42,320 nucleotides of DNA from Deltaproteobacteria bacterium (GTDB lineage: Bacteria; Desulfobacterota; Syntrophia; Syntrophales; UBA2185). Location of the stretch: assembly GCA_026388545.1 (NCBI GenBank), contig JAPLJS010000099.1, forward strand, positions 1 to 42,320. The letters run 5' to 3'. Below, one piece after another: positions 24,027 to 40,871 of the stretch. The notes under the pieces were generated by a model. It was not told the DNA's origin. It saw only the letters and a list, made by a program, of their open reading frames with translations, and made no database searches. The position numbers and the translations under genes were made by a program. Position 1 is the stretch's first letter. Every line of letters starts with the position of its first letter.

Positions 24027-25018
24027 TCAAAATTTTAATTGTAGACGACGAAGAGGGTGTCCGGATTTCTTTGAAAAAAGTTCTTCAAAGAGACGGCTAC
24101 GAAATTATCCTGGCCGAAAATGGTATGGACGCTATTGATTATGTTCGAAATCATATGAACGAAATAGACGCCGTTATATCCGACTTTAAGATGCCGGGCA
24201 TCGATGGCCTTGAAACTCTTACGGAAATAGGTAAATTGAATCCTGAAATTATCAGGATTATTCTGACCGGATATGCAACCCTTGACCGTGCCATTGACAG
24301 CGTTAATTCGGATATTGATGGTTTTTTAACGAAACCCTTTGACAACAACGAAATCAGATTGAAGATCAAGGAATTTCACATCAAAAAGAGGTTGAAACAA
24401 TTCGTGCCATCTCAGGTTCTGAATGAACTACAGAAATTCAGTGAGAACCTGGCGCCCCGAAACCAGAAAGTAACCATTCTTTTCACAGACATCCGCGGTT
24501 TCTCAAAAATAGCCGAAGCGCTGACGCCTCTTGAGCTGTCTGAGCTTCTGAATCTTCATTATTTTTACCCTCTTGATAACATAGTTTTTAAACATAACGG
24601 CACTCTCGATAAACATATCGGTGACAGCATTATGGGAATATTTGGTGCACCTCTCACCCAGGATGATGACGCGAAGAGAGCGGTTGCATGCGCAATTGAA
24701 ATGCGAAATAAAGTGGCTGAAGTAAACAAAGGAATACGCATAAAGAATATGAAGATCCCTGTCGGCTTCGGGATCAGCACAGGTGAGTCCATGGTAGGGA
24801 TTTTTGGCTCTGCAATCAGGAAAGAATATACAGCCCTGGGCAGACCCGTCAATTTAGCGGCGAGACTGGAACGGATTGCCCTTGAAGATCAAATCCTTAT
24901 CTGCAGCAAGACATACGAAGCCGTGAAGGATTTTTTCACGGTCGAGAAGATAGACCACGTAAACCTCAAGGGAATTGAGGGGGAAAGGTCTATCTATAAT
25001 GTTATTGACGTCATTTAG
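24023..25018 (+). CDS. Response regulator fused to a class III adenylate/guanylate cyclase
   Basis: The receiver (1-120) has D8, D9, the phosphate acceptor D54, T82 and K104. The cyclase (about 145-331) has both metal-binding Asp residues, D156 in FTDIRGFS and D201 in DKHIGDSIMGIFG. It also has GFGISTGESMVGIFGS and N277/R281 in LGRPVNLAARLE, the transition-state pair. K197 is a residue associated with ATP selection, so cAMP is the likelier product, but the second specificity position is Thr and not decisive. With the kinase encoded just before, the pair should convert a membrane signal into a cyclic nucleotide. All catalytic residues are present, so it is probably active. Confidence 0.93.
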   Translation: MIKILIVDDEEGVRISLKKVLQRDGYEIILAENGMDAIDYVRNHMNEIDAVISDFKMPGIDGLETLTEIGKLNPEIIRIILTGYATLDRAIDSVNSDIDGFLTKPFDNNEIRLKIKEFHIKKRLKQFVPSQVLNELQKFSENLAPRNQKVTILFTDIRGFSKIAEALTPLELSELLNLHYFYPLDNIVFKHNGTLDKHIGDSIMGIFGAPLTQDDDAKRAVACAIEMRNKVAEVNKGIRIKNMKIPVGFGISTGESMVGIFGSAIRKEYTALGRPVNLAARLERIALEDQILICSKTYEAVKDFFTVEKIDHVNLKGIEGERSIYNVIDVI

Positions 25019-25081: not shown

Positions 25082-25372
25082 ATGCCTATCAGTAAAATAT
25101 TGAGAGAAAAACGGGAGGAGATCCTCAGAATCGCAACGAAACACGGAGCCCGAAATTTGAGAATATTCGGTTCCTTTGCACGGGGCGAGGAACGACCAGA
25201 TAGCGACATTGATCTACTAGTAGAAATGGAACGCGATCGGTCGCTTCTTGACATCATTGCCATCAAGCATGATCTTGAAGACTTGATTCATCGGAAGGTT
25301 GATGTCGTTACACCGAATGCGATTTCACCATACCTCAGGGAAAAGATTTTAAAGTCTGCTCTATCCTTATGA
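25082..25372 (+). CDS. mntA: MntA-type minimal nucleotidyltransferase antitoxin
   Basis: The antitoxin of an MNT-HEPN module; in this family it adds AMP units to a Tyr of HepT and so silences it. The active-site motif GSFARGEERPDSDIDLLVE (residues 30-48) has the Gly-Ser pair and both catalytic Asp residues (D42, D44). The length of 96 residues is usual. It overlaps hepT by four bases (ATGA). It starts 63 bases after the cyclase, next to a TTGATGAACTCGTAAAAAGTC-like dispersed sequence (25040-25060). Confidence 0.92.
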   Translation: MPISKILREKREEILRIATKHGARNLRIFGSFARGEERPDSDIDLLVEMERDRSLLDIIAIKHDLEDLIHRKVDVVTPNAISPYLREKILKSALSL

Positions 25373-25698
25373 AAGAAGATCTTGTTTATCTTCGCCATAT
25401 TCTCGACGCAATTGAGAAGATTGAATCCTATACCGCGGTAAGTAAAGAAACATTCATGATTACAGCCCACTGGCAAGATGCAACCATCCGCAATTTAGAA
25501 ATTATCGGGGAGGCTGTAAAGCGTCTGAGCGACCCATTCAAACAGAGCAACCCTGAAATACCATGGAGAAATGTGGCAGGCCTTCGGGACGTCTTGATTC
25601 ACGATTATATGGGTGTGGATCTGGAAGTGATTTGGAATGTGGTCAAACGTAACCTACCGGAACTCAAACAAGCCATCCTGAATTATCTCCCCAAATAA
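25369..25698 (+). CDS. hepT: HepT-type HEPN toxin (DUF86)
   Basis: The toxin of the MNT-HEPN pair, an RNase of the HEPN fold. R73-DVLI-H78-D-Y80 gives the R-x4-H-x-Y motif: Arg and His form the catalytic pair and Y80 is the target of AMPylation. RNLEIIGEAVKRLS (41-54) is the other conserved helix of DUF86. The 109-residue length fits. It is expected to be active unless modified by the upstream MntA. Confidence 0.92.
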   Translation: MKEDLVYLRHILDAIEKIESYTAVSKETFMITAHWQDATIRNLEIIGEAVKRLSDPFKQSNPEIPWRNVAGLRDVLIHDYMGVDLEVIWNVVKRNLPELKQAILNYLPK

Positions 25699-25926: not shown

Positions 25927-27615
25927 CTATTTATCTGTTCCACTAAAGTAAACAACACAATTTTTGTTAGTATCCGTAGTTGTCGCCTGCGTGTAGTTTA
26001 TACTCGAAGGAGAAGATGAAATCGTACAGGCAGCATTGGTAAAGCCTTCTATATTTCCTAAGGGACCGATATTCCCAATGAATGCAGTGTCGAAAACAGA
26101 AGTACATCCGATACCATTTATGCGAAAATAAGCATTCCCCACATTATTCCAAACACCATATCCCCCGCATCCAGACGGTTCTTTTTTAAAATTCATTTTA
26201 AATTGTTTTAATATTACATTTTGCGTTGCGCCACCTGTTGCGGCTGTCCATCCAAAGAAAAAGGTAGTAAAATAATCGTGATAGGTCTGATTTAATTCAA
26301 TTGTTCGCTTCAGTGTAGGGAGATCAGTAGGTAGGGGGGCATACGCAATTTTGGTATTATCGTAATCTGGATAATTTGTAATAACATCCGAACAATCCGA
26401 AATAGTGCACTGCTTTATCCATGAATTGATCGTGTAGAAAAAGTTATTGTTACTGTTCTGAGTATTACTCCTTGTCACCTCTACCCGGAAAGCGTAGATA
26501 TTTGTCGGCGTGTTGCTTAACAACCAATTTGTTTGCGTTGGCCATAAAGAAGAGGCATCGAAATAACTTGCATCAGCGCCATCAGTGGGTCTCCTTGAAT
26601 TTCTCGGTTCAGTTGAAGTATCCGCACCATTATTATGTCTGTTATCATCATAGGTGTTACTCCCGACAGTAGCGGGAGAATGACATGAGCTGATTGTATT
26701 ATCGCCCCAGAAAACATAGGCTATGTGGTTTCTATTGTCAGTCCCATCACGCCTGCTGCCGGAAACACATACGTTCGCCGAACCGAAATTTGCATAAGGA
26801 TCAAATTCAACGGCCACTTTCGGCGGCTGAATGCCCCTTCCTCCTTTTCCGTCTAAAAAACTGGTCCCCGCGGAATCAACACGTGAATCGCCGGCATACC
26901 CCAGCAACTCACCCCTGCCATTATCCCCCCCAACAGAAGTGATACCATTCTTAACATTATTACCATCAACACCATCGCCATTAAAAAAAGTGAATGTAAA
27001 ACCATCTCCTGACGATCCCGTACCGAATTGAAAAACAAAAAAGGCCCGAAAACCTGTCCCAAAATCACATTTGCCATTCTGACAATTTCCTTGAACAGCA
27101 CTCCCTCCATATACGAGAGCGCCAAATTTAGAATACTCGCCTCCACCCAAACTAGCGGTTGTACCCGTTGCATCAACTTGCACAAAAGAAGAACCTGGCT
27201 GATTTCTTGGCGTCATAGCAGCAAAACCAGAAATATCCGGCCGTGAACTGAAACCCGTTTTGGTGATAGAAATTTTTCTTTTCGCTTCAAATGGCGTCCC
27301 CGCATTGACGATGCCTGTTGATGTAATATTGTTTCCAGTGATATCGAGCTGAAATTTATCATTACTTGGCAGTATCTGACCAGACTGGTTTTGTAATGTA
27401 AATATTCTACCATTTGTGTCCTCTATATTTTTAATCAGAGCATAATCTTTCCCCGCCAGGGCAAGGAAATAGGCTCTATTTAAGTTATTAGCGCCGAGTT
27501 CGCCTAAAGCAGCGGATGAACTCATGTAAAGCGCTCCCACAGCTAATGCGGCAATCGTGGTCATGGCGATTATGACATAGGCAATTACATTCCCTTTTTG
27601 ATTTGCAAAGGGCAT
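25927..27615 (-). CDS. MshP/PilX-like minor pilin fused to an L-type lectin-like domain
   Basis: The N-terminus (QKGNVIAYVIIAMTTIAALAVGALYM, about 6-31) is a pilin-type membrane helix of the PilX/MshP kind, without the usual Glu at +5. From about 130 to 480 there is a beta-rich domain with GTGFRAFFVFQFGTG, DGFTFTFFNGD and PPKVAVEFDPYANFG (265-279). The run V-A-V-E-F-D-x-Y/F-x-N is the hallmark of legume-type (L-type) lectins, as are the earlier G-D-G-F-x-F and the Gly-rich stretch between them. Several Cys pairs near the C-terminus fit an exported protein. GGGAGG lies just upstream of the ATG. It is the last gene of the pilus locus, so it may cap the pilus as a sugar-binding adhesin. The lectin call rests on motif recognition. 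Confidence 0.72.
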   Translation of the reverse strand: MPFANQKGNVIAYVIIAMTTIAALAVGALYMSSSAALGELGANNLNRAYFLALAGKDYALIKNIEDTNGRIFTLQNQSGQILPSNDKFQLDITGNNITSTGIVNAGTPFEAKRKISITKTGFSSRPDISGFAAMTPRNQPGSSFVQVDATGTTASLGGGEYSKFGALVYGGSAVQGNCQNGKCDFGTGFRAFFVFQFGTGSSGDGFTFTFFNGDGVDGNNVKNGITSVGGDNGRGELLGYAGDSRVDSAGTSFLDGKGGRGIQPPKVAVEFDPYANFGSANVCVSGSRRDGTDNRNHIAYVFWGDNTISSCHSPATVGSNTYDDNRHNNGADTSTEPRNSRRPTDGADASYFDASSLWPTQTNWLLSNTPTNIYAFRVEVTRSNTQNSNNNFFYTINSWIKQCTISDCSDVITNYPDYDNTKIAYAPLPTDLPTLKRTIELNQTYHDYFTTFFFGWTAATGGATQNVILKQFKMNFKKEPSGCGGYGVWNNVGNAYFRINGIGCTSVFDTAFIGNIGPLGNIEGFTNAACTISSSPSSINYTQATTTDTNKNCVVYFSGTDK

Positions 27616-27618
27616 AGC

Positions 27619-28119
27619 TTATCCTCCCGTTTCCAGGTAGAGATTTACCCGATCAATGAGGTTGATAGGGGTATCTTCAGCACCCTTTAACTGAAGTGTT
27701 ATTTCAATGATCGAAATCGTTGATGAATGGTTAGGCGAAGAACAACTGATATAAGAATTGCAATACGTTAAGTTAAACGAAGTTACGGGCTGAGCCAATG
27801 TATCACCATCTATCAAAAGAGGGCTGTTACCGCCAGCCCAGGATATAGTTATGGCAGGTCCTCCTGAACTTCGTGTGAATGTAATTGAAGTTGCCGTCCC
27901 AGACGTAACCGACTTGATATTGCTGATCTCTTTTTTAAGCCGTGTCATGGCTATTTGACCTTGTTGTGCCGTTGATGAGTTTTTTTTATAAAACACATAC
28001 CCTTTTGATATCTCGAGCAATCCCATACCGGCTATAACACTTATAATCATAATGATTATAAGTGAGGTTATAATCTCAATAAGTGTGAACCCCCGACTAT
28101 TACAGCTAATATTTTTCAT
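27619..28119 (-). CDS. Prepilin-like minor pilin (MshO-like)
   Basis: A type IV prepilin with the processing site RG|FTLIEIITSLIIIMIISVIAGMG after a short basic leader, then KKEISNIKSV and a beta-rich C-terminus (FNLTYCNSYISC). The frame continues up to 28182, but that includes codons overlapping the upstream gene. The Met at 28119 gives a normal 8-9 residue leader and leaves an 11-base gap. Its place fourth in the minor pilin row, just before the MshP-like gene, matches mshO in the MSHA order. Confidence 0.85.
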   Translation of the reverse strand: MKNISCNSRGFTLIEIITSLIIIMIISVIAGMGLLEISKGYVFYKKNSSTAQQGQIAMTRLKKEISNIKSVTSGTATSITFTRSSGGPAITISWAGGNSPLLIDGDTLAQPVTSFNLTYCNSYISCSSPNHSSTISIIEITLQLKGAEDTPINLIDRVNLYLETGG

Positions 28120-28130
28120 CTCACAATAAA

Positions 28131-28721
28131 TTAGTTTGAAATAAATAATGAAGTTATTGTAACGCATGTTTGCGGATCGCAAGGATCATTCTTAATCGTT
28201 ACTTTAAGGATTTTACTCCCACCGGCGGTTTCTACATTAGACGGTAAGGGGAATTGCACAAACTTATTTTCTACTACTCCGTAGGTTCCATAGTTTTTAC
28301 TGTTTATATTGCTTTGTAAATTTGTAAGTGTAAGGAAGGGACCATTTTCAGCAGTCTCTGTCCATGTAATAGTACCATCACTTTTTGTACCACCAGCAGT
28401 GAGAGGCCAGTCTGGTTCATTCGCACCACTTGTACCTGCCGCAGTACACTTATAATAATGCCCATTCCTGATTGTCGGAACGACATAATTACCTACTGCA
28501 TATAACGTCGTACTTCTCCATTTGGGGTATTTATTATAATCCGCCATGATATTTGCCGTGATTTTATTAAGTTCTGTAGTTTTTTGAAATCTTTTGACAG
28601 GGTCGCTGCTCTTTACAAGAGAATCGGAAAGAAAAGTGAGGATCATGGCGCTGAGAATAGCCACGATAACAACGGTAACTATGATTTCAATGAGAGTAAA
28701 CCCAGACTGGTTGCATTTCAT
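28131..28721 (-). CDS. Prepilin-like minor pilin with a carbohydrate-binding-like insert (MshD-like)
   Basis: Processing site SG|FTLIEIIVTVVIVAILSAMI at residues 6-26. Residues about 66-121 hold a compact module: W68, Y74, G77, V80-V81, G87-H-Y-Y90, W105 and W120, in the order W-Y-x-x-G-x-x-V...G-x-x-Y...W...W seen in small chitin- or carbohydrate-binding modules and in phage tail proteins. After it comes a normal pilin tail with a Cys pair (DPCDPQTC). The start overlaps the previous gene by four bases (ATGA). The insert is unusual in a pilin and hints at surface binding. Confidence 0.8.
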   Translation of the reverse strand: MKCNQSGFTLIEIIVTVVIVAILSAMILTFLSDSLVKSSDPVKRFQKTTELNKITANIMADYNKYPKWRSTTLYAVGNYVVPTIRNGHYYKCTAAGTSGANEPDWPLTAGGTKSDGTITWTETAENGPFLTLTNLQSNINSKNYGTYGVVENKFVQFPLPSNVETAGGSKILKVTIKNDPCDPQTCVTITSLFISN

Positions 28722-29200
28722 TGAATAAATCCTGTATTTCTGGTTATTGTAATGGTGCTTGTTTCAGTACCCTGAGCAAGTGTTATGGATATCGTCGTTG
28801 TCCCTGGGCTGCCCCATTTATCAAAAGTTACTGTCGTACCAACCCCGGATGTTATTCTCGTGTTGCCTTGTAGTCTATGTGTGTTATTCGGTGGCGGATC
28901 TTTTACAGGATCAGGTATTTTAACAGGAATCATGACGGAAGCAGCCGAACCATTTTTATATAATATATATGAACTGTCATCGGGAATGTGGATACCCCAC
29001 GTTGTAGTATCGTCATTCAACGCTTGTATCTGCACATAGCGAAGGCTTGCTTTTAAACCGTCTGTCTCAACTATCAATTCGTTTGTGCCCGTCGTCGTAT
29101 ATCGACTCATGACTACGGTGGACACAATAAGAAGCACGACCAGGACAGCCACGATCTCGATCATGGTAAATCCTTGATTATTTGACGCTAATCTTTTCAT
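28718..29200 (-). CDS. Prepilin-like minor pilin (MshC/FimT-GspH-like)
   Basis: The leader is followed by QG|FTMIEIVAVLVVLLIVSTVVMSRYT, the type IV prepilin processing site and hydrophobic helix. The body has GLKASLRYVQIQALND, a pattern of FimT/GspH-type minor pilins. It is first in the minor pilin row and overlaps the next gene by four bases. There is no good ribosome site, so it may be read through from the pilin transcript or use an unseen start signal. Confidence 0.85.
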   Translation of the reverse strand: MKRLASNNQGFTMIEIVAVLVVLLIVSTVVMSRYTTTGTNELIVETDGLKASLRYVQIQALNDDTTTWGIHIPDDSSYILYKNGSAASVMIPVKIPDPVKDPPPNNTHRLQGNTRITSGVGTTVTFDKWGSPGTTTISITLAQGTETSTITITRNTGFIQ

Positions 29201-29614: not shown

Positions 29615-29995
29615 TCAATTAACCGAAGTTAAAACCCACGATGAGGGCGTATTTATATCAGGTTGTTCCGTCTTGGTGAATACTACGGTTCTCCCCTTAA
29701 AGGTCACAGGTGCGCCTGATACGATAACTCCCCAATCTGAACCTAAGTCATAAGAAGGAGCCGTATAATTGGCATTCGACCCGGCATCCTGCAATTTACT
29801 CTTTGCAAGTTCCAACCGTTCACGAGCATTCAACTCGGAAACAGCTCCCAGGGCGGCATTTTTTATGGCATCCGTACGCATATCCAGATACTTCGGGATA
29901 GCCACTGCCGCCAGAATACCGAGGATGACGAGGACCGCGATGATTTCGATGAGGGTGAAACCCTTCTGGTTTCTCATTAGACTTTTTGCTTTCAT
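29615..29995 (-). CDS. Major pilin (MshA-like)
   Basis: A 126-residue type IV prepilin: leader MKAKSLMRNQKG, cleavage before FTLIEIIAVLVILGILAAVAIP, then KYLDMRTDAIKNAALGAVSELNARERL, the standard alpha-spine, and a short beta-rich head. The Met at 29995 is chosen because GGGAGG lies 7 bases upstream and the leader then has normal length; the longer frame to 30121 runs through a hairpin repeat and the promoter. A sigma-54-type promoter lies about 100 bases upstream, and the activator gene is the next one upstream. No Cys pair is present in the head, unlike classical type IVa pilins. Confidence 0.92.
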   Translation of the reverse strand: MKAKSLMRNQKGFTLIEIIAVLVILGILAAVAIPKYLDMRTDAIKNAALGAVSELNARERLELAKSKLQDAGSNANYTAPSYDLGSDWGVIVSGAPVTFKGRTVVFTKTEQPDINTPSSWVLTSVN

Positions 29996-30059
29996 TTTGA
30001 CCTCCCGGAATTTTTTATTCCTTATATTTTTTAATTTTCGTTCTCTATTTATTCCTGGT

Positions 30060-30078
30060 TTCCGGATCAAGTCCGGAA
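30060..30078. repeat. CCGGA dyad in the pilin leader
   Basis: TTCCGGA-TCAAG-TCCGGAA forms a 7-base-pair hairpin in the predicted pilin 5' untranslated region. The same dyad, usually flanked by ATGAC as here, is scattered in many bacterial genomes. It could stabilise the pilin mRNA. Confidence 0.6.
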
Positions 30079-30105
30079 TGACATATGGTTTTGATGATTT
30101 AATTA

Positions 30106-30120
30106 GCACCTTCCATGCCA
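30106..30120 (-). promoter_or_regulatory. Sigma-54 (-24/-12) promoter of the major pilin
   Basis: The minus strand reads TGGCATGGAAGGTGC, against the sigma-54 consensus TGGCAYG-N4-TTGC. The essential GG and GC are exactly 10 bases apart. It predicts a start near 30094 and a leader of about 100 bases to the ATG at 29995. The neighbouring gene encodes a sigma-54 activator, which strongly supports the call. Confidence 0.75.
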
Positions 30121-30126
30121 TGATAG

Positions 30127-30285: not shown

Positions 30286-31617
30286 CTACATTTTTTGTAG
30301 GCTTTTCAGGGACTCCGTGTCGATCTCATGTTTCTTGATTCTGTGCCAGAGGCTTCTCTGGTTAATGCCCAGTAGCTCTGCCGCTTTGACCTGAACCCCG
30401 CCTGTGCGTGTCAAAGCTTCTATGATCATACCCTTTTCAATCTCATCCATACGGTCATCAATTGTCAAAGAATTGAATGAAGACTGATCATGTAACGAGT
30501 CTGCGGTCATGACACCTGCAATGTGTGCGGGAATATGGATCGCTTCAATTGTCTCTGTTTCGGTTAAGACAGTCGCCCTTTCTATAGTATTCTGCAGCTC
30601 TCTTACGTTTCCCGGCCACGAATATCCTGCGATAATCTGAAGAGCCTGAGGTGAAATGTGAACTTGTTTTTGGTTTTTCTCTAAGAAATGATCCACAAGA
30701 TAGGGAATATCCTCTCGTCTTTCTCTCAACGGGGGAAGATAAATAGAAAATACATTGATGCGGTAATAGAGATCTTCCCGAAATTGACCCTGTCTGACCA
30801 TTTCGGGGAGGTTCTTGTTGGTGGCAATGATGAAGCGGACATCTACCTTGATCGTCCGGTTGCCCCCTACCCTTTCAAACTCTTTTTCCTGGAGAACGCG
30901 CAGCAATTTTGCCTGTGTTGTAAGAGGCATGTCTCCGATTTCATCTAAAAATATCATGCCGCCTGCGGCCATTTCAAATTTACCTATTTTCTGAGACGTC
31001 GCTCCCGTGAAAGCCCCTTTTTCATAACCGAAAAGTTCGCTTTCCAGAAGGTTTTCGGGTATGGCCACACAATTGATTTTCACAAAGGGTTTTCCCTTGC
31101 GCAGGCTATGCTCGTAAATACTTGCCGCTACCAGTTCTTTTCCCGTCCCGCTTTCGCCTAAGATAAGAACCGTCGAATCAGTCGGCGCCACTTTCAATAT
31201 CTGCGTAAACAATCCCCTCATGATCTTACTCTGGCCAATTATACCGGGGAAAAGCTCTTTGGCCTCGACTTTGCTCAAAATCGTCGTTATTTGATCAAAC
31301 ACCTGCGTAAATCGTTCGATGTCGTCCTTTGCCTTTACCTCTTCGTCTGCCTGTTTCGGAAAAACAGGCAGACTTTCCGCCATCTTAACAAACCTGTTTA
31401 CCGGTTTTAAGACAACCCAGATGATGAGAAGGCTAATCAGGTATGTTAAAACAACTACGGTGATCCCCCATAGTATAAATGACCATGTCTGACCGGTTAT
31501 CATCTTTCCGTAAGACTGAATCAATCGGTCTGTCAGGATTACCCACAAGAGGGAGAGTCCACTTAAGGTGAATGGAATAATGATATACAAGCTGACTTGA
31601 ATGTATTTTTGTTTCAT
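30286..31617 (-). CDS. Membrane-anchored sigma-54-dependent transcription activator
   Basis: An NtrC-class activator with no receiver domain. Instead, two membrane segments (about residues 10-28 and 47-70) lead into a linker that starts [18 protein letters not shown]-like. The AAA+ domain has GESGTGKE (154-161), the sigma-54-contacting loop GAFTGA (201-206) and Walker [10 protein letters not shown] (221-229). A Fis-type HTH closes the protein ([21 protein letters not shown]). It begins 3 bases after the mshG stop with a poor ribosome site. Its likely target is the pilin promoter at 30106-30120. Direct control of a sigma-54 activator from the membrane, with no kinase, is uncommon. Confidence 0.92.
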
Positions 31618-31620
31618 ATT

Positions 31621-32841
31621 TCAGCGTGCTAATTTTGTTAGATCCCACATGGGTAGGAATATAGCCATGGCAAAAAATCCGACAACCGCGGCAAGACCGA
31701 CAATCAGAACAGGACCGATGAGGTCGGATAACCGCTTCACGGCATAACTGACTTCATCATCGTAATGCAGAGTAACCTGCTTGAGCATATCTTCAATATT
31801 TCCCGTTTCTTCCCCTATGGCAACCATATCGACAACCATGGGAGGGAAATATTTTGCCGCACCGAGAGGGGCAGCAATACCACGTCCCTCCTGAATCTGC
31901 TCCCTGACGCGATCAAATTCACGGGAGATGGCCTTATTGCCGATAACGTCGGATAAAATTTTCATGGAAGTCATAACGGGTACACCGCTCGACTGTAAAA
32001 TACCAAAGATACTGGCAAAGCGGGACATGGCAGCCTTCACGAACAAAGGACCAAGAATGGGCAGGCGGAGGATAATCGTATCTTTTACATAGTGTCCCTG
32101 CTCTGTCTTTAAATAGCTTTTCAGCCCGACGAAGAGCGCAATAACGCCACCGAGTAAAAGATACCAATAGCTTGATAAAAACTGATAAAGCATCATAGCT
32201 ATCTTTGTCGGCAGGGGAAGAACAATGCCCGCCTTGGAAAACATCTCAACAAATTGTGGAACGACAAACGTCAGGAGAACAAAGAAGGCGGCGACAAGGG
32301 CTATCGTCACAATCATTGGATACTGCAAGGCTGATTTTATATCAGATTTTATCCTTGACTCATGTTCAATGATATAGATCAGGCGTTCGAGAGACTCCGG
32401 GACGGAACCACTCATCTCACCGGCCCTTATCATGCTGCAGTAAAGCGGCGAGAAGATTGTGTCGTGTTTTTCCATGGCTGCAGTGAGGGTAAACCCCTGA
32501 TTGATGCTCTGCAACATAGAACCGATGGCTTCTTTTAAAACACGATCCTGCGTTTGCGCCTGCAACACCTGAAGAGACCTGACTATTGGCACGCCCGCCT
32601 TAAACAGTGAGCGAAACTGCTTCGTAAAAAGGATCAGATCCGTAATCTTCACAGGGTTCATTTTCCGGAGAATCCTTGACCATCGGAGAGAACTAATACC
32701 GTACCCCTGTTCTTTCACCTTCGTAGGGATATATCCCCTCTCAGCCAACATACTTGAGGCCTTATCGGGTGACTCCGCCTCGATATCGCCGGTTATGACT
32801 GCCCCATTTTCATTTATGGCTCGAAATGTATAATTAGGCAT
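31621..32841 (-). CDS. mshG: MshG-like inner-membrane platform protein (GspF/PilC family)
   Basis: This is the membrane platform that transmits force from the ATPase to pilin. The N-terminal YTFRAINENGAVITGDIEAES is the start of the family; two T2SSF repeats follow (LFKAGVPIVRSLQVLQAQT, and the second ILQSSGVPVMTSMKILSDV), with three membrane segments, the last near the C-terminus (LIGPVLIVGLAAVVGFFAMAIFLP). A GTG at 32862 overlaps the mshE stop, but the ATG at 32841 with AGGGA upstream starts the protein where the family starts (MPNYTFRA). Confidence 0.92.
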   Translation of the reverse strand: MPNYTFRAINENGAVITGDIEAESPDKASSMLAERGYIPTKVKEQGYGISSLRWSRILRKMNPVKITDLILFTKQFRSLFKAGVPIVRSLQVLQAQTQDRVLKEAIGSMLQSINQGFTLTAAMEKHDTIFSPLYCSMIRAGEMSGSVPESLERLIYIIEHESRIKSDIKSALQYPMIVTIALVAAFFVLLTFVVPQFVEMFSKAGIVLPLPTKIAMMLYQFLSSYWYLLLGGVIALFVGLKSYLKTEQGHYVKDTIILRLPILGPLFVKAAMSRFASIFGILQSSGVPVMTSMKILSDVIGNKAISREFDRVREQIQEGRGIAAPLGAAKYFPPMVVDMVAIGEETGNIEDMLKQVTLHYDDEVSYAVKRLSDLIGPVLIVGLAAVVGFFAMAIFLPMWDLTKLAR

Positions 32842-32858
32842 AATTGCTGATCCCTGAT

Positions 32859-34562
32859 TCACATCATTACTGCTGAGCCCGCTTCCTCAAGGGTGGTAAT
32901 CCCCCTGAGTACCTTGTTGCCGGCATCATATTTCAGGGTTTTCAAGTTACCCGCATCAATAGCTTTACGTGTGATTTCATGAGCAGACTTTTTCTTCATG
33001 ATTAAATCCTGAATCATCTCATCGTTAACAAGAACTTCAAATAAACCTGTTCGTCCCTTATAACCGGTATTCAAACATTGATTGCACCCTCTGCCGCGCT
33101 GAAAATTTGCAAAATCCCAATTTTCAAGGCCCCATGAGGCAAGTATCTTTTCTGGTGGATTATAGGGTTCTCTACAATAAGGGCATACGGTCCGGACTAA
33201 TCGTTGGGCAATACATGCCAGAAGCGTCGAAGCCAAGAGAAAGGGTTCAATCCCCATATCAATAAACCTTGTTATGGCACCTACGGCATCATTGGTATGT
33301 ACGGTGCTCAATACTCTATGACCCGTCTGCGCCGCCTGTACTGCAATAGCGGCTGTCTCGGCATCACGGATTTCACCTACCATAATAATATCGGGATCCT
33401 GACGAAGTATGGATCTGAGACCACTGGCAAAAGTCATTCCCGCTTTCCGGTTAAGTTGAATCTGCCTGATATTATCGATCCGATATTCAACAGGATCTTC
33501 AAGGGTCATTATATTGCTGTCCGGCCGATTAAGTTCATTCAAGACGGCATAAATGCTTGTACTTTTTCCCGATCCGGTCGGTCCGGTACTTAAGATCATC
33601 CCATAGGGTTTTTGTATGATAGATCTGAGCCTTTCACTATCCGACTTGACCATTCCGAGCCGATCCAGGGAATAAACACCGGCGCTCGTATCCAGAAGGC
33701 GCAAGACAACATTCTCTCCATAAATGGTCGGTATGGAAGATACACGGACATTTATTTCTTTCTTTTCCATTCTGAGGGTAAATCTTCCATCCTGCGGCAT
33801 TCTTGTTACCGTAATATCCATGTTGGAAAGTATCTTTATCCTGGCGATAATTGGTAAAAACAGGGCTTTAGGGGGGGATGGCACCTCATGGAGCTTGCCA
33901 TCTATCCGGAATCGAACCTGTATAGTGTTCTTCTGTGGACTGATATGGATATCACTGGCCCCTTCGCGAACGGCCTGAGCAAAAATAGAATTAACGAGCC
34001 TGATAATAGGCGCCTCACCGGCCATATTCTGAAGCGAGGCTAACTGAATGTCTGCAGTATCGTCCTCATCCTTTTCCTTAAAAGGCTGGGCTTCAATCTC
34101 CATACTCTCCAGGACACTACCGAGGCCCGATTGAATACCATAGAGACTGCTTATCAACTGATTCAGTTCACGTTCTGTGCATACTACGGCTTCCACCTCA
34201 CAATTCGTCAGCGTCTCTATGAAGTCCAGTGCATTGATGTCCAGAGGATCCATCATTGCAATTGTCAAAAGACGGCCCCTTTTCCGTAACGGTGCAACCT
34301 GGTGCTTCTGAGCAACTTCTATAGATATTGCCTTTGAGAGTTCAACATCAAAGGGAAACATATCCGGGTGATATTTTCTGAGTCTCAACTGCCGGCCTAA
34401 TACATCGACAATCTGTTGCTCCGTTATGATCCCCCGACGAACAAGATACTGCCCAAGTTTCAGGCCGGCCTTCTCCTGATCGGTAAGAGCCTTGTTAAGC
34501 TGTTCTTCTGTCAGCATATTCTCATCAACAAGCATCTGACCTAGTTTCTTTTTGACTATCAT
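32859..34562 (-). CDS. mshE: MshE-like pilus extension ATPase
   Basis: A GspE/PilB-class hexameric ATPase. The N-terminus has two MshEN-type motifs, KLGQMLVDENMLTEEQLNKA (from residue 6) and LKLGQYLVRRGIITEQQIVD (from residue 34); in characterised MshE this domain binds cyclic di-GMP. The core has Walker A GPTGSGKS (327-334), the Asp box EDPVEYR and Walker B DIIMVGEIRDAET (391-403), and the His box TVHTNDA. A CPYC...CNQC zinc site lies near the C-terminus. AGGAGG lies 3 bases before the ATG. It should power pilus assembly in response to cyclic di-GMP; that control is inferred from the motifs. Confidence 0.95.
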   Translation of the reverse strand: MIVKKKLGQMLVDENMLTEEQLNKALTDQEKAGLKLGQYLVRRGIITEQQIVDVLGRQLRLRKYHPDMFPFDVELSKAISIEVAQKHQVAPLRKRGRLLTIAMMDPLDINALDFIETLTNCEVEAVVCTERELNQLISSLYGIQSGLGSVLESMEIEAQPFKEKDEDDTADIQLASLQNMAGEAPIIRLVNSIFAQAVREGASDIHISPQKNTIQVRFRIDGKLHEVPSPPKALFLPIIARIKILSNMDITVTRMPQDGRFTLRMEKKEINVRVSSIPTIYGENVVLRLLDTSAGVYSLDRLGMVKSDSERLRSIIQKPYGMILSTGPTGSGKSTSIYAVLNELNRPDSNIMTLEDPVEYRIDNIRQIQLNRKAGMTFASGLRSILRQDPDIIMVGEIRDAETAAIAVQAAQTGHRVLSTVHTNDAVGAITRFIDMGIEPFLLASTLLACIAQRLVRTVCPYCREPYNPPEKILASWGLENWDFANFQRGRGCNQCLNTGYKGRTGLFEVLVNDEMIQDLIMKKKSAHEITRKAIDAGNLKTLKYDAGNKVLRGITTLEEAGSAVMM

Positions 34563-34617: not shown

Positions 34618-36177
34618 CTATCTTGTAAAAAATATCGTATCTTTATCCAATTTTGTGAAAACTTTCGTATTTGACGAAAGTTTCTGCGGTATATTTTTTA
34701 CCACATTTAGGGCTGATTCCGTATCATCATAGCCATCCTTCAAAAATATTGCAAATACCAGCCCCTCACCGACATTCCAGTATGGAAGGAATTTTAGGGA
34801 GGGTAATGTGGATTCATAATTTTTGTATAATTCATATATCTCGTCAACATTAGGGCTATTTGCTAGCTTTACCCAATATTTCCCCTGGGGAAAGGGATCT
34901 GACTTAGCTTGAATAGCCGGGAGTTTGATTGCCTCACCAGCCTTCACGCGATTGAGGTTTTTAATATGCGGATTGGCAAGGGCAACCGCTTTAAGCTGCC
35001 CTGCGTCGAAATCTCCATAAAAGTCATTAAGCATCCGCCACACGGTTCTCCCTTTTTTTAACTTCATCTTTCCCAGAAGGTCGGGCATTGTTTTATTCAC
35101 CTGCGGCGTAATATTTGGGGTTTTTGCTGCTGCTTCCGTTACGGGTGTTTTCGCACTTTGAGCTGGGTCACTCACAACACTTTGCACCGGTACAACAATT
35201 TCCTGAGTTTTCATAATGCCCGCCGGCTCACTCCCGGATTTGTTTTCCAGTATCAGCTCAGGGTAAAATCCTGCAACAGCCGCAATAACAAAAAAAATTA
35301 CCAGTGCCGTTACTGTCACCCATTTTAAGCTTCCCCGTTTAACAGCAGGTACCCGATGTGCACAGGAGCGAACGAGAAACCATCCTGCCTTCGATTTATT
35401 CTGGATGATTAACGCCAGGATTATTTGATGACAAAGTGTCACAACCTTTCTTGGATAACCGCTCGTCGCCAGATATAAGGCCCATAGTCCGGGATAGGTA
35501 AATAGTGAGGGGGCATTGTCCGTATCGCTGGCCTTCGCTATACGGAAGTTCACCATACCCTGAGTCTCCCGAAAATTAAGAGGCTCTAAGAGGTAGTAGA
35601 AGTTGACCCTGTCGGCGAAATTTTTATGTCTTTTAAAGATCTGATCAAATTCACGTTGGGCAAAAATAACTATCTGGAGTAATTTATACTCGTTTGTTTC
35701 GTAATTGAGAAACTCACGCAGTATCTCAAGGCAGAAATCCGGTAGTTTTTGCCCCTCATCAATAATGAGAACAACTATCTTCCCCTCATCAACACCCTTG
35801 CTGAAGAGATAATTTTTTATATTTTCTTTTAGTTGCCATTCGCTGACATTGGCGCCGGCATCGGATACTCCAAAAGTCATTGCCACTGTTGATAAAAATT
35901 CAAGAGGATTTGTAAAAGAAGGATCCAGGAGAAGGTGGGTTTCAATCTGGTTTCTGTCTTCCTCCGACGAGGCAAATTTAAGGATTAACTGCCGGCAGAG
36001 GGTAGTTTTCCCCGTTCCAACATCACCAACCACTACACTTAACCCCCGGCGGAGACGAACGGCAAGTTCAACCTTTTGCAGACAACCTACATGCTTGACA
36101 GATTGAAAAAAAAACTCCGGCTCCGGCGAGTTGGAAAAGGGCTCCTTTTTTAGATTTAAAATCCTGAAATAATCCAT
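34618..36177 (-). CDS. mshM: MshM-like AAA ATPase with membrane segment and LysM-like domain
   Basis: An ExeA/MshM-type ATPase: FFFQSVKHVGCLQKVELAV precedes Walker A GDVGTGKTT (51-59), with Walker B VVLIIDEGQ (135-143) and the arginine-sensor region following. A single membrane segment is at about 286-304 (VTVTALVIFFVIAAVAGFY). The periplasmic part holds a LysM-like module (about 368-428: WRMLNDFYGDF...NPHIKNLNRVKAGEAIKLP), which fits binding of peptidoglycan. The C-terminal 90 residues (GKYWVKLANSPN onward) look like a SPOR-type repeat. Such proteins place the secretin in the cell wall. Confidence 0.88.
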   Translation of the reverse strand: MDYFRILNLKKEPFSNSPEPEFFFQSVKHVGCLQKVELAVRLRRGLSVVVGDVGTGKTTLCRQLILKFASSEEDRNQIETHLLLDPSFTNPLEFLSTVAMTFGVSDAGANVSEWQLKENIKNYLFSKGVDEGKIVVLIIDEGQKLPDFCLEILREFLNYETNEYKLLQIVIFAQREFDQIFKRHKNFADRVNFYYLLEPLNFRETQGMVNFRIAKASDTDNAPSLFTYPGLWALYLATSGYPRKVVTLCHQIILALIIQNKSKAGWFLVRSCAHRVPAVKRGSLKWVTVTALVIFFVIAAVAGFYPELILENKSGSEPAGIMKTQEIVVPVQSVVSDPAQSAKTPVTEAAAKTPNITPQVNKTMPDLLGKMKLKKGRTVWRMLNDFYGDFDAGQLKAVALANPHIKNLNRVKAGEAIKLPAIQAKSDPFPQGKYWVKLANSPNVDEIYELYKNYESTLPSLKFLPYWNVGEGLVFAIFLKDGYDDTESALNVVKNIPQKLSSNTKVFTKLDKDTIFFTR

Positions 36178-36199: not shown

Positions 36200-37855
36200 T
36201 CACTTTCCCGTTTCAGGAGCTTTTTCTGATTTCTTATCCGATCCTTCCGGCACTGCGGCTACTTTCTGGACAGGCAATATTGTCGGCGTGATGAATATCA
36301 GAACCTCTTCCATAGATTCTCTTTTCCCCGTTCCCTTGAATAGCCATCCCAGCACGGGGATATCTTTAAATCCGGGGATACCGCTTTCAGAATCCTGACT
36401 TTTCTGCTTGGTCAGTCCCGAAATCACAATTGTTTCACCATCTCTTACAATAAGCGATGTTTCTGTTTGCTTCTTGATAATAAAGGGGTTCCCCTCGACC
36501 TGCCTTGTCATATCGACTTCATCTTTAACCACCTTTATCTCCATTTTGAGATTTTTCCCGTCGATCACATGGGGTTTGATTTCCAGCCTGAGGACGGCAA
36601 TCTCGAATTTCACCGTTTTCGTAGGAGGAGTAATCGTAGTATCAAGCGTCACATAAGGAATTTTTTCACCATTTTCCGTAAAGGCCTTTTGATTATCAAG
36701 GGTAGTGATAGACGGACTGGATAATATGTTCAATTTCCCGTCTTTTTGTAATGCATTCAGTTGCATCTCAAGAATATTCCCCCCAAGGGTTCCGAACATG
36801 AGACCAAGAGTCCCCGCGGCAGATGCCGACATGGTTGCAGGAAAATTTACACCAAACCCCTGACCGCTCAGACCGGGAGAACCATAAGTGGGGGTATAAT
36901 AACCAGCACCTGATATCGGATTTATTATTGACGTGCTTCCAGTTGGAACTTGTGTCGTTCCTCCCGGTGTTACCCACAGATTGTGGTCGCCCAGCCGGGG
37001 ATTGTACATACCACCCCACTGGATGCCGAGATCACGGGCAGTATCTTTAGTTGTTTCCACAATGTTCGCCTTAATCAAAATCTGCGGCGTCGGTTTATCG
37101 AGCCTCTCAATAACAGGAATCATTCTCAGTAAATCATCCCTTATTGCATGAATGATCAGGGAGTTGCTGTGCTCATCCACTCTTATTGATCCATATGGCT
37201 TGCCGTCCTTATCTTTCGTCAGAAATTCCTGAAGATTATCCTTGAGCCCCTTAGCATCGGCATAACTGATGCTGATCACACGGGTCAGCGGCGGTTCCAT
37301 CTGTTTAATGCCCCTCTCCTGGGTTTTTCTCTTCAGATCCTGCTCTATATCATCCGACGTCATAACGCGAATAATGTCGCCCTCCCAGGCATAATTCAAG
37401 CCCTGGTTACGCAGGATACTATTGAATGCCTGATCCCATGGAACGTTCTTGAAATCAACGGTAACATCCCCTTTAACCTCATTCTTGACCAGTATGTTCT
37501 GTCCCTCAATCCGGGCAAGAGACCGGAGAACCGCCTTTACATCAGCCTGGCGCATTTTCAGGCTTATGTTCCCTGTAGGAAGGCGCCTTGCAGGTTTTAC
37601 CACCCTTCCCCCCGGTGAATCAGATTCTCCTTTTTGTTCAACTTCCAGCATACTCATTGTCTTTGGTATCGGCGCCGGCGATTGTCCCGTGTTTGTCTTC
37701 GCCATTTTATCCCATTTCTCAAAGAAAGGATCCTTCTTTACTGATTTATCGCCGGCACAACCCATTATGAGCACTCCCATTAAAAAGACAACGATCAGCC
37801 AGCTAATTCTTTTCCGATGGTGTCTATCAGCCAAGGTCAATCCCCCCTTCCACAT
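36200..37855 (-). CDS. mshL: MshL-like secretin (outer-membrane pilus channel), lipoprotein
   Basis: The outer-membrane ring through which the pilus leaves. A lipoprotein signal (SWLIVVFLMGVLIMGC, Cys33) is followed by an STN-like domain (ISLKMRQADVKAVLRSLARI, then VTVDFKNVPWDQAFNSIL), a secretin N domain (VISISYADAKGLKDNLQEFL) and the secretin core ending in IPGFKDIPVLGWLFKGTGKRE. ATG at 37855 has AGGA 9 bases upstream; a TTG at 37834 after GGGGGG is an alternative that would drop seven residues. Next to mshK and mshM, in MSHA order. Confidence 0.94.
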   Translation of the reverse strand: MWKGGLTLADRHHRKRISWLIVVFLMGVLIMGCAGDKSVKKDPFFEKWDKMAKTNTGQSPAPIPKTMSMLEVEQKGESDSPGGRVVKPARRLPTGNISLKMRQADVKAVLRSLARIEGQNILVKNEVKGDVTVDFKNVPWDQAFNSILRNQGLNYAWEGDIIRVMTSDDIEQDLKRKTQERGIKQMEPPLTRVISISYADAKGLKDNLQEFLTKDKDGKPYGSIRVDEHSNSLIIHAIRDDLLRMIPVIERLDKPTPQILIKANIVETTKDTARDLGIQWGGMYNPRLGDHNLWVTPGGTTQVPTGSTSIINPISGAGYYTPTYGSPGLSGQGFGVNFPATMSASAAGTLGLMFGTLGGNILEMQLNALQKDGKLNILSSPSITTLDNQKAFTENGEKIPYVTLDTTITPPTKTVKFEIAVLRLEIKPHVIDGKNLKMEIKVVKDEVDMTRQVEGNPFIIKKQTETSLIVRDGETIVISGLTKQKSQDSESGIPGFKDIPVLGWLFKGTGKRESMEEVLIFITPTILPVQKVAAVPEGSDKKSEKAPETGK

Positions 37856-37860
37856 GTACG

Positions 37861-38370
37861 TTATTCCTGCAAAGGAACATCAAATTTTGCCCCACTCTTT
37901 TCATTGATAATTACGACTTTGCCCTGATAAATATTTTTCAGGACATATCCCTCGATTTCTAAAGGATCACCGGATTCATACTCGACGCCATTAATGATAG
38001 CGACCTTTTTATTGCTAACTTTCAGATAACCGGAATAAATAAAACTCATTTTTTGCGATGTTCCGCTGCCGGCTTTAGCCGGTTCTTTAAGCTTCACCCA
38101 TTCCCTGAACGATTTTTTGTCATAAAACGGGTCCTTCGTCCATTGGGCTTCAGCACGGCTGACTATATAGGCATCAGCAGCAGAGAGCGATCCTTTCGGC
38201 ATGCTCGCTGTAATATTATTGATGAATGTTTCTAATTCCATAGACTTTTTCCCTATATCAATCACGGCCGATTTTGTTCGCGGCGCGATAAAGAAGTCAT
38301 AAGCAGCATACAGTACGGCGACAACCATCACGGAAAGTATAATGATTTGCTGTTTTGTCAGTTTTGGCAT
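37861..38370 (-). CDS. MshK-like pilus assembly protein
   Basis: A 169-residue protein with one N-terminal membrane anchor (IIILSVMVVAVLYAAYDFF, about 9-27), a helical linker and a C-terminal beta domain: FIYSGYLKVSNKKVAIINGVEYESGDPL, then YVLKNIYQGKVVIINEKSG. That is the small beta-domain of MshK/PilP/GspC-type secretin-linking proteins. AGGGA lies 5 bases before the ATG. Its place between the PilO-like gene and the secretin agrees with MshK. Confidence 0.82.
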   Translation of the reverse strand: MPKLTKQQIIILSVMVVAVLYAAYDFFIAPRTKSAVIDIGKKSMELETFINNITASMPKGSLSAADAYIVSRAEAQWTKDPFYDKKSFREWVKLKEPAKAGSGTSQKMSFIYSGYLKVSNKKVAIINGVEYESGDPLEIEGYVLKNIYQGKVVIINEKSGAKFDVPLQE

Positions 38371-38447: not shown

Positions 38448-38981
38448 TTAACCAAGCGCCAGCCAAATCTTCATTTTAAATTCCATTGTATCCTCGTTTT
38501 GCTGAATCTGAATTTCTTCAATACGCTCCAGATAGGGTACTTCACCAATACCGATGAGAAATTTGCGGAAATTTAAGAAATCACACCTGACAACTGTATC
38601 AACAAGAAGAAATCTGGGCTCATTTCCTAAGGAATTCAGGTTTGGAGAAACCGAAACTGTATCGATATTGGCTTTTTGTGCTATCTGCCTGAAAGTTGAT
38701 GGAATTGTATCCAGCTGTGTTCGTGGAAGTGGGCTCCTTGCAGGTGCGGGTAAAACCTTCGCATCCCTTGTCTGAGACTTCTTCTGCAACACTTGATAAA
38801 TAGGGTAAAGGCTTTTTTGTTCCTCGATCTGAAATTGAATACTTTTGATCTTCTGATCTAAACGCGCTAAAGAAAACTGGTTCGGAACGATTCCGGCAAA
38901 TACAATAAGCAACACACCCGACAGGCATATCAATGAATAGAGTAAACTGCGCTTTGGAATTATTGCGTATATTTTTCCCAT
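38448..38981 (-). CDS. PilO/MshJ-like alignment protein
   Basis: A 177-residue bitopic protein: a membrane segment at about residues 13-33 (LLYSLICLSGVLLIVFAGIVP), a coiled-coil stretch (LARLDQKIKSIQFQIEEQKSLY) and a ferredoxin-like C-terminal domain, the PilO layout. With the PilN half of its neighbour it would form the inner-membrane ring. The ribosome site is poor and the gap to the preceding gene is 9 bases, so coupling is likely. Confidence 0.85.
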   Translation of the reverse strand: MGKIYAIIPKRSLLYSLICLSGVLLIVFAGIVPNQFSLARLDQKIKSIQFQIEEQKSLYPIYQVLQKKSQTRDAKVLPAPARSPLPRTQLDTIPSTFRQIAQKANIDTVSVSPNLNSLGNEPRFLLVDTVVRCDFLNFRKFLIGIGEVPYLERIEEIQIQQNEDTMEFKMKIWLALG

Positions 38982-38990
38982 GAGAGGATT

Positions 38991-40871
38991 CTAACCTATC
39001 TTCATATCGATAACAAAGCGAAGGACTTCGCTTTTCTTAAAAGGTTCGATGCTGTTCTTCTGCACACTGATCTGACGGAACATTGGTGATGCTTCCAACT
39101 TCATGATATATCCGGCAAGCGTTGATTCAAGATTCCGTCTATCGCCAAAAACAAGCCCCTCAACCACCACGTTTTTTAATTCTTCCTTTACCGCTTCCTT
39201 TTTAGAATCCGTTGCGGGCTCCTTTCCGGAGGGAACAGCTCCCAGAAGATGAGTTTTAAGATTAATGAGACGAATATTTGCCGGGGTCAGTAACGACAAT
39301 TCACTGATAACGGCCATTCCAAGATACCTATCACTGTACACCTTAGACATTTGCTGCTGCTTTCCGGAGCTTGCGACCATCTGGGATATCAAATTCTGAT
39401 CGACACGAGGACTGTACTGCGATACCTGTTTCTCGAGTCCGGCTATTATGGCTTCTTTCTGACCGGCGTCTTGAATCTGATAGAGAAAAAATCCCGAAGA
39501 AATGAATACAGCAACAATAAATACTATAAAAATGATACGATTTGCACGGACGATGTTAGCTGCCTTTTCCTTGTCTTTAAATGTAAATAACAGATTGGGC
39601 GTATAAGCATTATCGGAAAGCGCAAGCCCCAGGGCCGGAATAAGAGCAAGTCTTTCAGAAACAGAAGTTTCTTCTATGCTCTTGGTTTTGCCAGGCATTT
39701 GATAGGTGAGAGGATCCGGCACATCACTTTCAATACCGAGTTGATTACCTATATATTCTATGATGTGCCTTGAAAAATTCATTGCACTCGATACGTGAAT
39801 TTTGGCGACTCTATCATAATTAAGAATAGCCGAATAATATTCGAAAGTTCTCTCTACCTGCCTGATCACCCTTTCTAAGGCTGGTAAAACGGTCTCAAAT
39901 TTTTCTTCTTCTGTAAGCTCAAAGCCGGCGTCCTCCTGCGTTAGGGGCGGGGAATCAGGACTGAGGCTGAAGAGAATCTTCCTCGCCTGTTCCACGTTTA
40001 TTTGTGGCCTCTTTCCTCCCATTTCCGATATGCCTTGCCATGGTCCTGTAAGCTTTTCCAGTAATGATTCAACCATGCTGTTTATTCCCGCTTTAATACC
40101 CCGGGTCATAATAAGCTTCCCCTTGGCATAGATATCAATTCGGGAAAAATCATTTCCGATAAAAAGACCCGCAACCGTACTTTCATCGGCTTGTGGAATC
40201 CATCCGGTTTTGAAGATGTTCTGGATTGCGAACGGCGTAATTGATATGCCGGTCAACGGCAACCCCATTTGGGAGAACATGCCTTTTATCTCCTCGACTT
40301 CCTCCCTTGGCGCCGTATAAACCATAGTCAGCCATTTGCTTATGCCCTGTTCGGTAACTTCTCCCTGAATTTCAAAATCGAATATTGTATCTTTCTCATC
40401 AAAAGGTGTTTCTTTTTTAATTGTCCAATAAACAGCGTTCTCGATCTGTTTTTTTGCTACCTTCGGTATATGGATATGGCGTACATTCACCTTTGCCGCA
40501 GACATAATGGCCCATAGATTCGCATTTCTACAGTTACCGCAAAATTCGTTAATTTCGGATTTTAGAAAATTGATATATTCCGGTGATTTTATAGTGGTTG
40601 TATGGGTGAACGGCACGCTCTTGTAATTGAGCAATTCCCACCGGTTATCGGCCAATCTTGCCGTTTTTACCAACCTCAGGTATTTATGACCAATATCGAT
40701 ACCAATAGTTACTGATTTCTGAACAGAAATCATTTTTGATGCAGTGGATTTAAATCCTTTTTTCGGCGGATCAATTTTCGATTTATCTGCAGACTCATTA
40801 ATATCATTCTTTTTATGACGAATGATATCAAGAAGTCTTTCTGTAGAAGTAATCTCTTTTAAGCGGGACAA
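38991..40871 (-). CDS. Fused PilM-PilN pilus assembly protein (MshI-like)
   Basis: Residues about 50-435 are an actin-like PilM domain: IGIDIGHKYLRLVK at 56-69, IPKVAKKQIENAVYWTIKKETPF, and GLFIGNDFSRIDIYAKGKLIMTRGI as the second phosphate-binding region. A membrane segment at 446-465 follows, then a coiled coil and a PilN-type periplasmic domain (LTPANIRLINLK, then VVVEGLVFGDRRNLESTLAGYI). In most systems PilM and PilN are separate proteins that bind through the PilN N-terminus. The start is a TTG at 40871 with GAGGAG 7 bases upstream. First gene of the pilus operon. Confidence 0.9.
   Translation of the reverse strand: MSRLKEITSTERLLDIIRHKKNDINESADKSKIDPPKKGFKSTASKMISVQKSVTIGIDIGHKYLRLVKTARLADNRWELLNYKSVPFTHTTTIKSPEYINFLKSEINEFCGNCRNANLWAIMSAAKVNVRHIHIPKVAKKQIENAVYWTIKKETPFDEKDTIFDFEIQGEVTEQGISKWLTMVYTAPREEVEEIKGMFSQMGLPLTGISITPFAIQNIFKTGWIPQADESTVAGLFIGNDFSRIDIYAKGKLIMTRGIKAGINSMVESLLEKLTGPWQGISEMGGKRPQINVEQARKILFSLSPDSPPLTQEDAGFELTEEEKFETVLPALERVIRQVERTFEYYSAILNYDRVAKIHVSSAMNFSRHIIEYIGNQLGIESDVPDPLTYQMPGKTKSIEETSVSERLALIPALGLALSDNAYTPNLLFTFKDKEKAANIVRANRIIFIVFIVAVFISSGFFLYQIQDAGQKEAIIAGLEKQVSQYSPRVDQNLISQMVASSGKQQQMSKVYSDRYLGMAVISELSLLTPANIRLINLKTHLLGAVPSGKEPATDSKKEAVKEELKNVVVEGLVFGDRRNLESTLAGYIMKLEASPMFRQISVQKNSIEPFKKSEVLRFVIDMKIG

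Follow-up and report, generated by a model that had tools for sequence, protein, structure and literature searches.

A minor pilin with a predicted L-type lectin module in the MSHA-like type IV pilus locus of a Syntrophales bacterium

Beyond a few pathogens, it is mostly unknown how type IV pili pick what they grip. A survey published in 2021 listed more than 1,200 modular pilins in 264 architectures, several of which contain carbohydrate-binding modules; ComZ, CofB and S. sanguinis PilB belong to this group, and an N-terminal motif matching IPR012902 was required for inclusion (PMC8179133). A bona fide lectin pilin is S. sanguinis PilC, which binds sialylated glycans and heparin-type probes (PMC9934059). 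The minor pilins PilX and GspK lack Glu5 and have been placed at the tip (PMC7541494, PMC7248040). In Myxococcus, the Glu5-less PilX was modelled on top of the minor-pilin complex, where it touches PilY1; extended pili contain this complex (PMC7541494). V. cholerae has mshQ behind mshP (PMC4624765).

The DNA analyzed here (the window) is the whole 42,320-nucleotide stretch of contig JAPLJS010000099.1. It encodes a 562-residue protein that probably serves an MSHA-like type IV pilus as a modular minor pilin, displaying an L-type lectin for sugar binding at the tip. The genes of the locus are as follows.

38991..40871, minus strand: PilM/PilN-like protein, MshI slot (PilM model, E 1e-22, below cut-off)
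38448..38981, minus strand: putative MshJ/PilO-slot protein (position only; no family match)
37861..38370, minus strand: putative MshK-slot protein (position only)
36200..37855, minus strand: secretin, MshL slot (PilQ model, 331 bits against a cut-off of 284)
34618..36177, minus strand: AAA ATPase, MshM slot (TIGR03015, E 1e-38, below cut-off)
32859..34562, minus strand: assembly ATPase with MshE-type c-di-GMP motif (PilB model, E 2e-180; NF053729, 63 bits against a cut-off of 38)
31621..32862, minus strand: inner-membrane platform protein of the MshG/PilC/GspF type (GspF model, E 4e-104)
30286..31617, minus strand: sigma-54 activator with N-terminal membrane segments (NifA/NtrC-type models)
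29615..30121, minus strand: major pilin, MshA slot (N_methyl, E 6e-10)
28718..29200, minus strand: first minor pilin, GspH/FimU/MshC slot (GspH model, E 9e-7, below cut-off)
28131..28721, minus strand: second minor pilin, GspI/PilV/MshD slot, with a CBM_5_12-like segment (N_methyl, E 1.8e-8; CBM_5_12, E 0.019)
27619..28182, minus strand: third minor pilin, GspJ/PilW/MshO slot, motif SRG/FTLIE with Glu5 (N_methyl, E 1.5e-5)
25927..27615, minus strand: probable modular minor pilin, PilX/GspK/MshP slot, with a predicted L-type lectin module, 562 residues (intact ORF and homologues)

This gene order is the mshI-to-P order of an MSHA locus, and the c-di-GMP motif of MshE was found above cut-off. 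Because the secretin meets the PilQ cut-off and fails that of the MshL equivalog (TIGR02519, 97.8 bits against 250.2), the locus is called MSHA-like only. The last four genes form a tightly packed cassette, in which the overlaps or gaps between neighbours range from a few to about fifty bases. Glu5 is part of the prepilin motif in the first three products (FTMIE, FTLIE and FTLIE, respectively). The 562-residue protein, encoded fourth after the GspH-, GspI- and GspJ-like pilins and without Glu5, fills the GspK/PilX/MshP slot. The prepilin peptidase PilD and two PilT-type ATPases are encoded elsewhere in the genome.

Some further features of the locus can be recorded at this point. The CBM_5_12-like segment covers residues 68-120 of the second minor pilin (28131-28721 (-)) with an E value of 0.019; in the related locus L008 it is doubled and reaches 2.6e-4, all of these values being below cut-off. 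Two slots of one tip complex may hold sugar-binding modules, i.e. the lectin and the CBM_5_12-like segment. Beside the pilin cassette lie a histidine kinase and a response-regulator/class III nucleotidyl cyclase (23082-25018 (+)), a pair that is kept in about six other genomes, lectin-less ones included, and that is possibly a contact-signalling pair. A toxin-antitoxin type pair of an MNT nucleotidyltransferase and a HepT-like protein (25082-25698 (+)) separates the cyclase gene from the lectin pilin, and its MNT gene is seen again close to the homologous locus L040.

A preliminary description, made from the sequence alone, had read the last gene of the cassette as a pilin helix joined to an L-type lectin-like domain. 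This reading is borne out: the ORF lies at exactly 25927-27615 (-), it is intact, and both modules could be modelled. The protein is divided as follows (the slash marks the cleavage site).

27247..27615, minus strand: pilin module, residues 1-123, KG/NVIAY cleavage, no Glu5, helix 7-62 and four short strands (models and VIA-align)
26176..27246, minus strand: predicted L-type lectin domain, residues 124-480, about 355 residues (VIA-align Z 19.9 to 7elv; Foldseek E 5e-8)
26992..27006, minus strand: DGFTF, residues 204-208; in the alignment, D204 falls on the sugar-binding Asp of legume lectins (Asp conserved in 15 of the 17 homologues)
26725..26808, minus strand: putative metal-binding loop E270-F-D272-P-Y274-A-N276 ... 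D290 ... H297 (alignment of 17)
26221..26253, minus strand: GWTAATGGATQ, residues 455-465, counterpart of the GFSATTG strand of legume lectins (alignment and profile search)
25930..26175, minus strand: Cys-containing C-terminal tail, residues 481-562, about 80 residues (pLDDT below 40; alignment)

The prepilin sequence KG/NVIAYVIIAM occupies residues 7-17, so that the mature protein would begin with N1-V-I-A-Y5 and lack the Glu5 that the other three cassette pilins retain. When residues 1-131 were modelled separately, a 56-residue helix and four strands were obtained. The best eight rows of a VIA-align comparison with this model were all pilins or pseudopilins (Z 8.4-5.5), including the modular pilin ComZ, and the ninth row scored 4.4. 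Foldseek found nothing significant for the pilin module by itself (best E 0.31), so it is VIA-align and the sequence that carry its assignment as a pilin; the fold comparison did not reach an assignment to GspK. The Pfam model N_methyl did not match the 562-residue protein, and scans with Pfam and NCBIfam returned no family at cut-off for either its lectin or its pilin part. PilX_N (PF14341) and T2SSK are likewise not detected in it, and a weak PilX_N match (E 1.3e-4, 22.4 bits against a cut-off of 25.5) is present in the pilin of the relative L041, in which lectin and pilin are separate genes. The PilX/MshP label given in the preliminary description is thus favoured by the gene position, the missing Glu5 and the weak PilX_N match in a relative, but not by any family match of the protein itself. 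With its prepilin helix, modelled pilin fold and additional C-terminal domain, the protein has the predicted make-up of a modular type IV pilin. The tail (481-562) is present in the alignment only in the window protein and its closest relative.

The lectin domain was modelled with AlphaFold2 from an alignment of 17 sequences (the window and related loci), with a pLDDT of about 90 across most of residues 134-210 and 373-475. The best Foldseek matches in the PDB were legume lectins (E 5e-8). In VIA-align, the legume lectin domain of Methanocaldococcus jannaschii (7elv) was matched with a Z of 19.9 and an rmsd of 2.4 over 204 residues; pea, winged bean and other seed lectins, ERGIC-53, SraP and YwfG followed at Z 18-19, covering residues 124-482. 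All 50 matches listed look like L-type lectins, and the model supports an L-type lectin fold specifically for residues 124-480. The comparison with legume lectin folds had been set beforehand as the check that could refute the lectin reading, and it yielded a concanavalin A-like jelly roll. An extent of about 350 residues (130-480) had been proposed for the domain; the fold is indeed found there, but the boundaries are 124-480, followed by the tail of about 80 residues. A LamG- or galectin-type module, as in S. sanguinis PilC, was considered, but the neighbours listed are all of the L-type. A list of neighbours cannot exclude other families, and therefore we claim only the L-type match. Comparison of the domain with viral predicted structures gave low-quality matches only.

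Profile searches lead to the same families. A PDB search with the single protein sequence found nothing, but profiles built from the homologues of the lectin region matched almost only legume lectins (best 2fmd, E 0.006 and 0.0027) and recovered the metal-site stretch in them. The Pfam family Lectin_L-type_dom (PF18483) does not match the window protein; it matches 7 of the 17 homologues (best E 2e-6), below its gathering cut-off of 78.3 bits (e.g. 27 bits).

Legume lectins hold Mn and Ca via E8, D10, Y12, N14, D19 and H24, and their sugar contacts are made by D208, N14 and a loop of glycines (concanavalin A numbering). We take E270, D272, Y274, N276, D290 and H297 to be the equivalents of E8, D10, Y12, N14, D19 and H24. 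Among the 17 homologues (29-72% identity), E270, D272, R288, D290 and H297 are unchanged throughout, as is G229/G230 of the Gly-rich loop. Residue N276 is Asn in 15 of them and A or D in the other two, and D204 is Asp in 15. Judged from the alignment, the domain would thus possess the metal-ligand set of concanavalin A together with the sugar-contact Asp and the Gly-rich loop. Given this conservation and the Pfam and PDB profile matches, DGFTFTF (residues 204-210) and KVAVEFDPYANF (residues 266-277), which had been singled out as a lectin signature, are not chance resemblances, and the predicted metal-binding Asp/Asn expected of such a lectin are in place in the sequence.

Relatives of the protein were missed when contigs were scanned with the single protein; a scan with the alignment found them. 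Full-length homologues with 38-72% identity occur in 5 genomes of the order, and the organism is related to a Syntrophaceae MAG (L037, 71% identity). Of 155 genomes belonging to the order, 21 have the lectin domain, as do 12 of 395 sampled from the phylum. The four-gene minor-pilin cassette is also present in relatives. The lectin is fused to the fourth-slot pilin in the window and in L037-L040, L042-L045, L052, L053, L055, L084 and L085, and it is split off in nine loci (L041, L047, L048, L049, L050, L051, L054, L027 and L031). In all nine, which are those with readable upstream DNA, the lectin gene directly follows a lectin-less PilX-slot pilin of about 315-376 residues where complete; a tenth split lectin (L046) has masked upstream DNA and is not counted here. 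The split lectins begin with an ordinary signal-peptide-like (Sec) start, and in L051 genes for PilT/PilU-type ATPases come next after the lectin. In two genomes of the same family (G003 and G006), the pilin is kept with 53-59% identity over its 118 residues and stops at 121-124 residues; a search of the order found no lectin elsewhere in these genomes. Same-family genomes manage with a lectin-less version (L006, L007), so the pilus can dispense with the lectin module.

A tree of 28 lectin domains requires at least three changes between the fused and the split form, and a topology that unites all split forms in one clade was rejected with modest significance (p-AU 0.023). Being fused in some lineages and adjacent in others is the usual sign of proteins that work together, and this is what the distribution suggests for pilin and lectin. 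Because the Glu5-less PilX of Myxococcus was modelled as touching PilY1 from the top of the minor-pilin complex (PMC7541494), the split lectin would occupy the place expected for PilY1 or MshQ.

The pilin slot also shows other variations. L084:5313-10480 and L085:5631-10756 each have three tandem PilX-slot pilin genes, at least two of them with a recognisable lectin. In L052:8079-11300 and L053:8891-12184, about 400 residues are inserted within the lectin domain of the pilin, and the L052 insert matches PQQ-type beta-propeller models. A single protein of Salidesulfovibrio brasiliensis (L042:3714-5822) combines the pilin helix, an L-type lectin and a second ConA-like module (Laminin_G_3, E 6e-20), and L055:9440-13852 encodes a pilin of 1470 residues with lectin, BACON, PA14, He_PIG, MBG and Gly-rich modules. 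In other genomes of the order (L008, L010, L011 and L012), a different, unassigned C-terminal module occupies this slot, with the motifs GYxLSYDLQxKIK ... AGLxFR. The Rhodocyclales/Sulfuritalea-type proteins of L057-L070 are about 1000 residues long, resemble pilins at the N-terminus and contain the core of a distant L-type lectin (E 1e-16 to 1e-25); the Rhodocyclales protein of L060 keeps the motif as EFDTSRN ... RND ... HH, and in at least this case MSHA-like genes adjoin.

An L-type fold that has lost sugar binding could have been retained to cap the pilus, where it would bind proteins or act as a spacer. L-type folds may bind proteins, as exemplified by ERGIC-53 with MCFD2 among the structural neighbours; moreover, the sugar-contact Asn is altered in two relatives, and the loops of the window family are enlarged compared with plant lectins. 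The invariant E, D, D and H, together with D204 and N276 in 15 of 17 sequences over a range of 29-72% identity, are however what one would expect of a domain that binds metal and sugar, and we consider the loss of sugar binding unlikely. Concanavalin A-like jelly rolls also include glycosidases, so that the domain might be an enzyme such as a glucanase or lyase instead of a lectin. This is very improbable: the structural neighbours listed are L-type lectins and contain no hydrolases, an active site of the E-x-D-x-x-E type is absent from the domain, and the conserved acidic residues correspond to metal ligands.

A different question is where the lectin is exposed. If the cassette formed a pseudopilus as in type II secretion, the lectin would be located in or near the periplasm and handle secreted substrates. 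The GspH-I-J-K order is common to type II secretion and type IV pili (PMC7248040), and models of GspF and GspE score for the platform protein and the ATPase as do those of PilC and PilB. The secretin, however, is above the cut-off of PilQ and not that of GspD, the ATPase has the MshE c-di-GMP motif, the AAA protein and the MshI-to-P order are as in MSHA loci, and PilT/PilU-type genes follow the split lectin in L051. A secretion pseudopilus is thus quite unlikely here. Due to the minor-pilin order shared by both systems, surface exposure of the lectin rests on the PilQ-type secretin, PilT and the type of the locus.

Sugar binding by a pilus-borne module is in our view the best explanation of the lectin pilin. 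The N-terminal helix would insert the protein into the tip complex, and extension of the pilus would carry the lectin module out of the cell, where it could bind sugars on a neighbouring cell, a matrix or a surface; PilT-driven retraction would then draw the cell toward the bound target. From what is known of the families concerned, we infer that the lectin pilin is located at the tip, binds sugars and depends on metal. The fused and split forms suggest an exchangeable sugar-gripping pilus tip. A wider scheme is doubtful as a whole: a metal-dependent L-type lectin would serve as an exchangeable MSHA-like tip adhesin across Desulfobacterota and beyond, either fused or separate like PilY1, it would bind glycans of syntrophic partners in Syntrophales-like bacteria, and the kinase and cyclase would report the contact.

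In these uncultured relatives of syntrophs, which are anaerobes, the presumed extreme-tip slot would thus be filled by a lectin fold whose metal and sugar site is well understood. One cassette that comes in fused, split and lectin-less versions amounts to a natural experiment in which tip function can be compared, and which favours the idea that PilX forms one exchangeable unit with PilY1-like partners.

Among known systems, S. sanguinis PilC resembles the window protein in that a pilin module is followed by a lectin module of the ConA-like superfamily, for which a tip location was proposed (PMC9934059). The PilC module is galectin-like, and the available text describes no legume-type metal site in it (PMC9934059), whereas the window module is of the L-type with legume metal-site residues. 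PilC has Glu5, an Ig-like module and a Gram-positive locus (PMC9934059), while the window protein is a Glu5-less pilin of the GspK/PilX slot in an MSHA-like locus. The L-type lectins (legume seed lectins, ERGIC-53, SraP, YwfG and 7elv) share with the window domain the fold (Z 18-20), the metal-ligand set, the sugar-contact Asp/Asn and the GxTxxTG strand; the window lectin differs in its structural sequence identity of only about 14-21%, its much longer loops, its extra cysteines and its attachment to a pilin. PilX with PilY1 and MshP with MshQ are similar to the split relatives, as a PilX-slot pilin is followed by a large secreted protein, but unlike PilY1 and MshQ the partner is here an L-type lectin, which in the window is fused to the pilin. 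As the window protein is not matched by N_methyl, the Pfam model of IPR012902, its lineage would escape the modular-pilin survey (PMC8179133). The preliminary description knew of no such protein in an MSHA locus, and a limited search of the open-access literature found no description of a type IV pilin bearing an L-type lectin or of such a lectin in an MSHA locus; the novelty is nevertheless partly reduced by PilC (PMC9934059) and by the survey (PMC8179133). Lectin-bearing modular pilins are therefore already known, and what is new is the L-type lectin, either as a fusion to the PilX-slot pilin or as a split neighbour gene.
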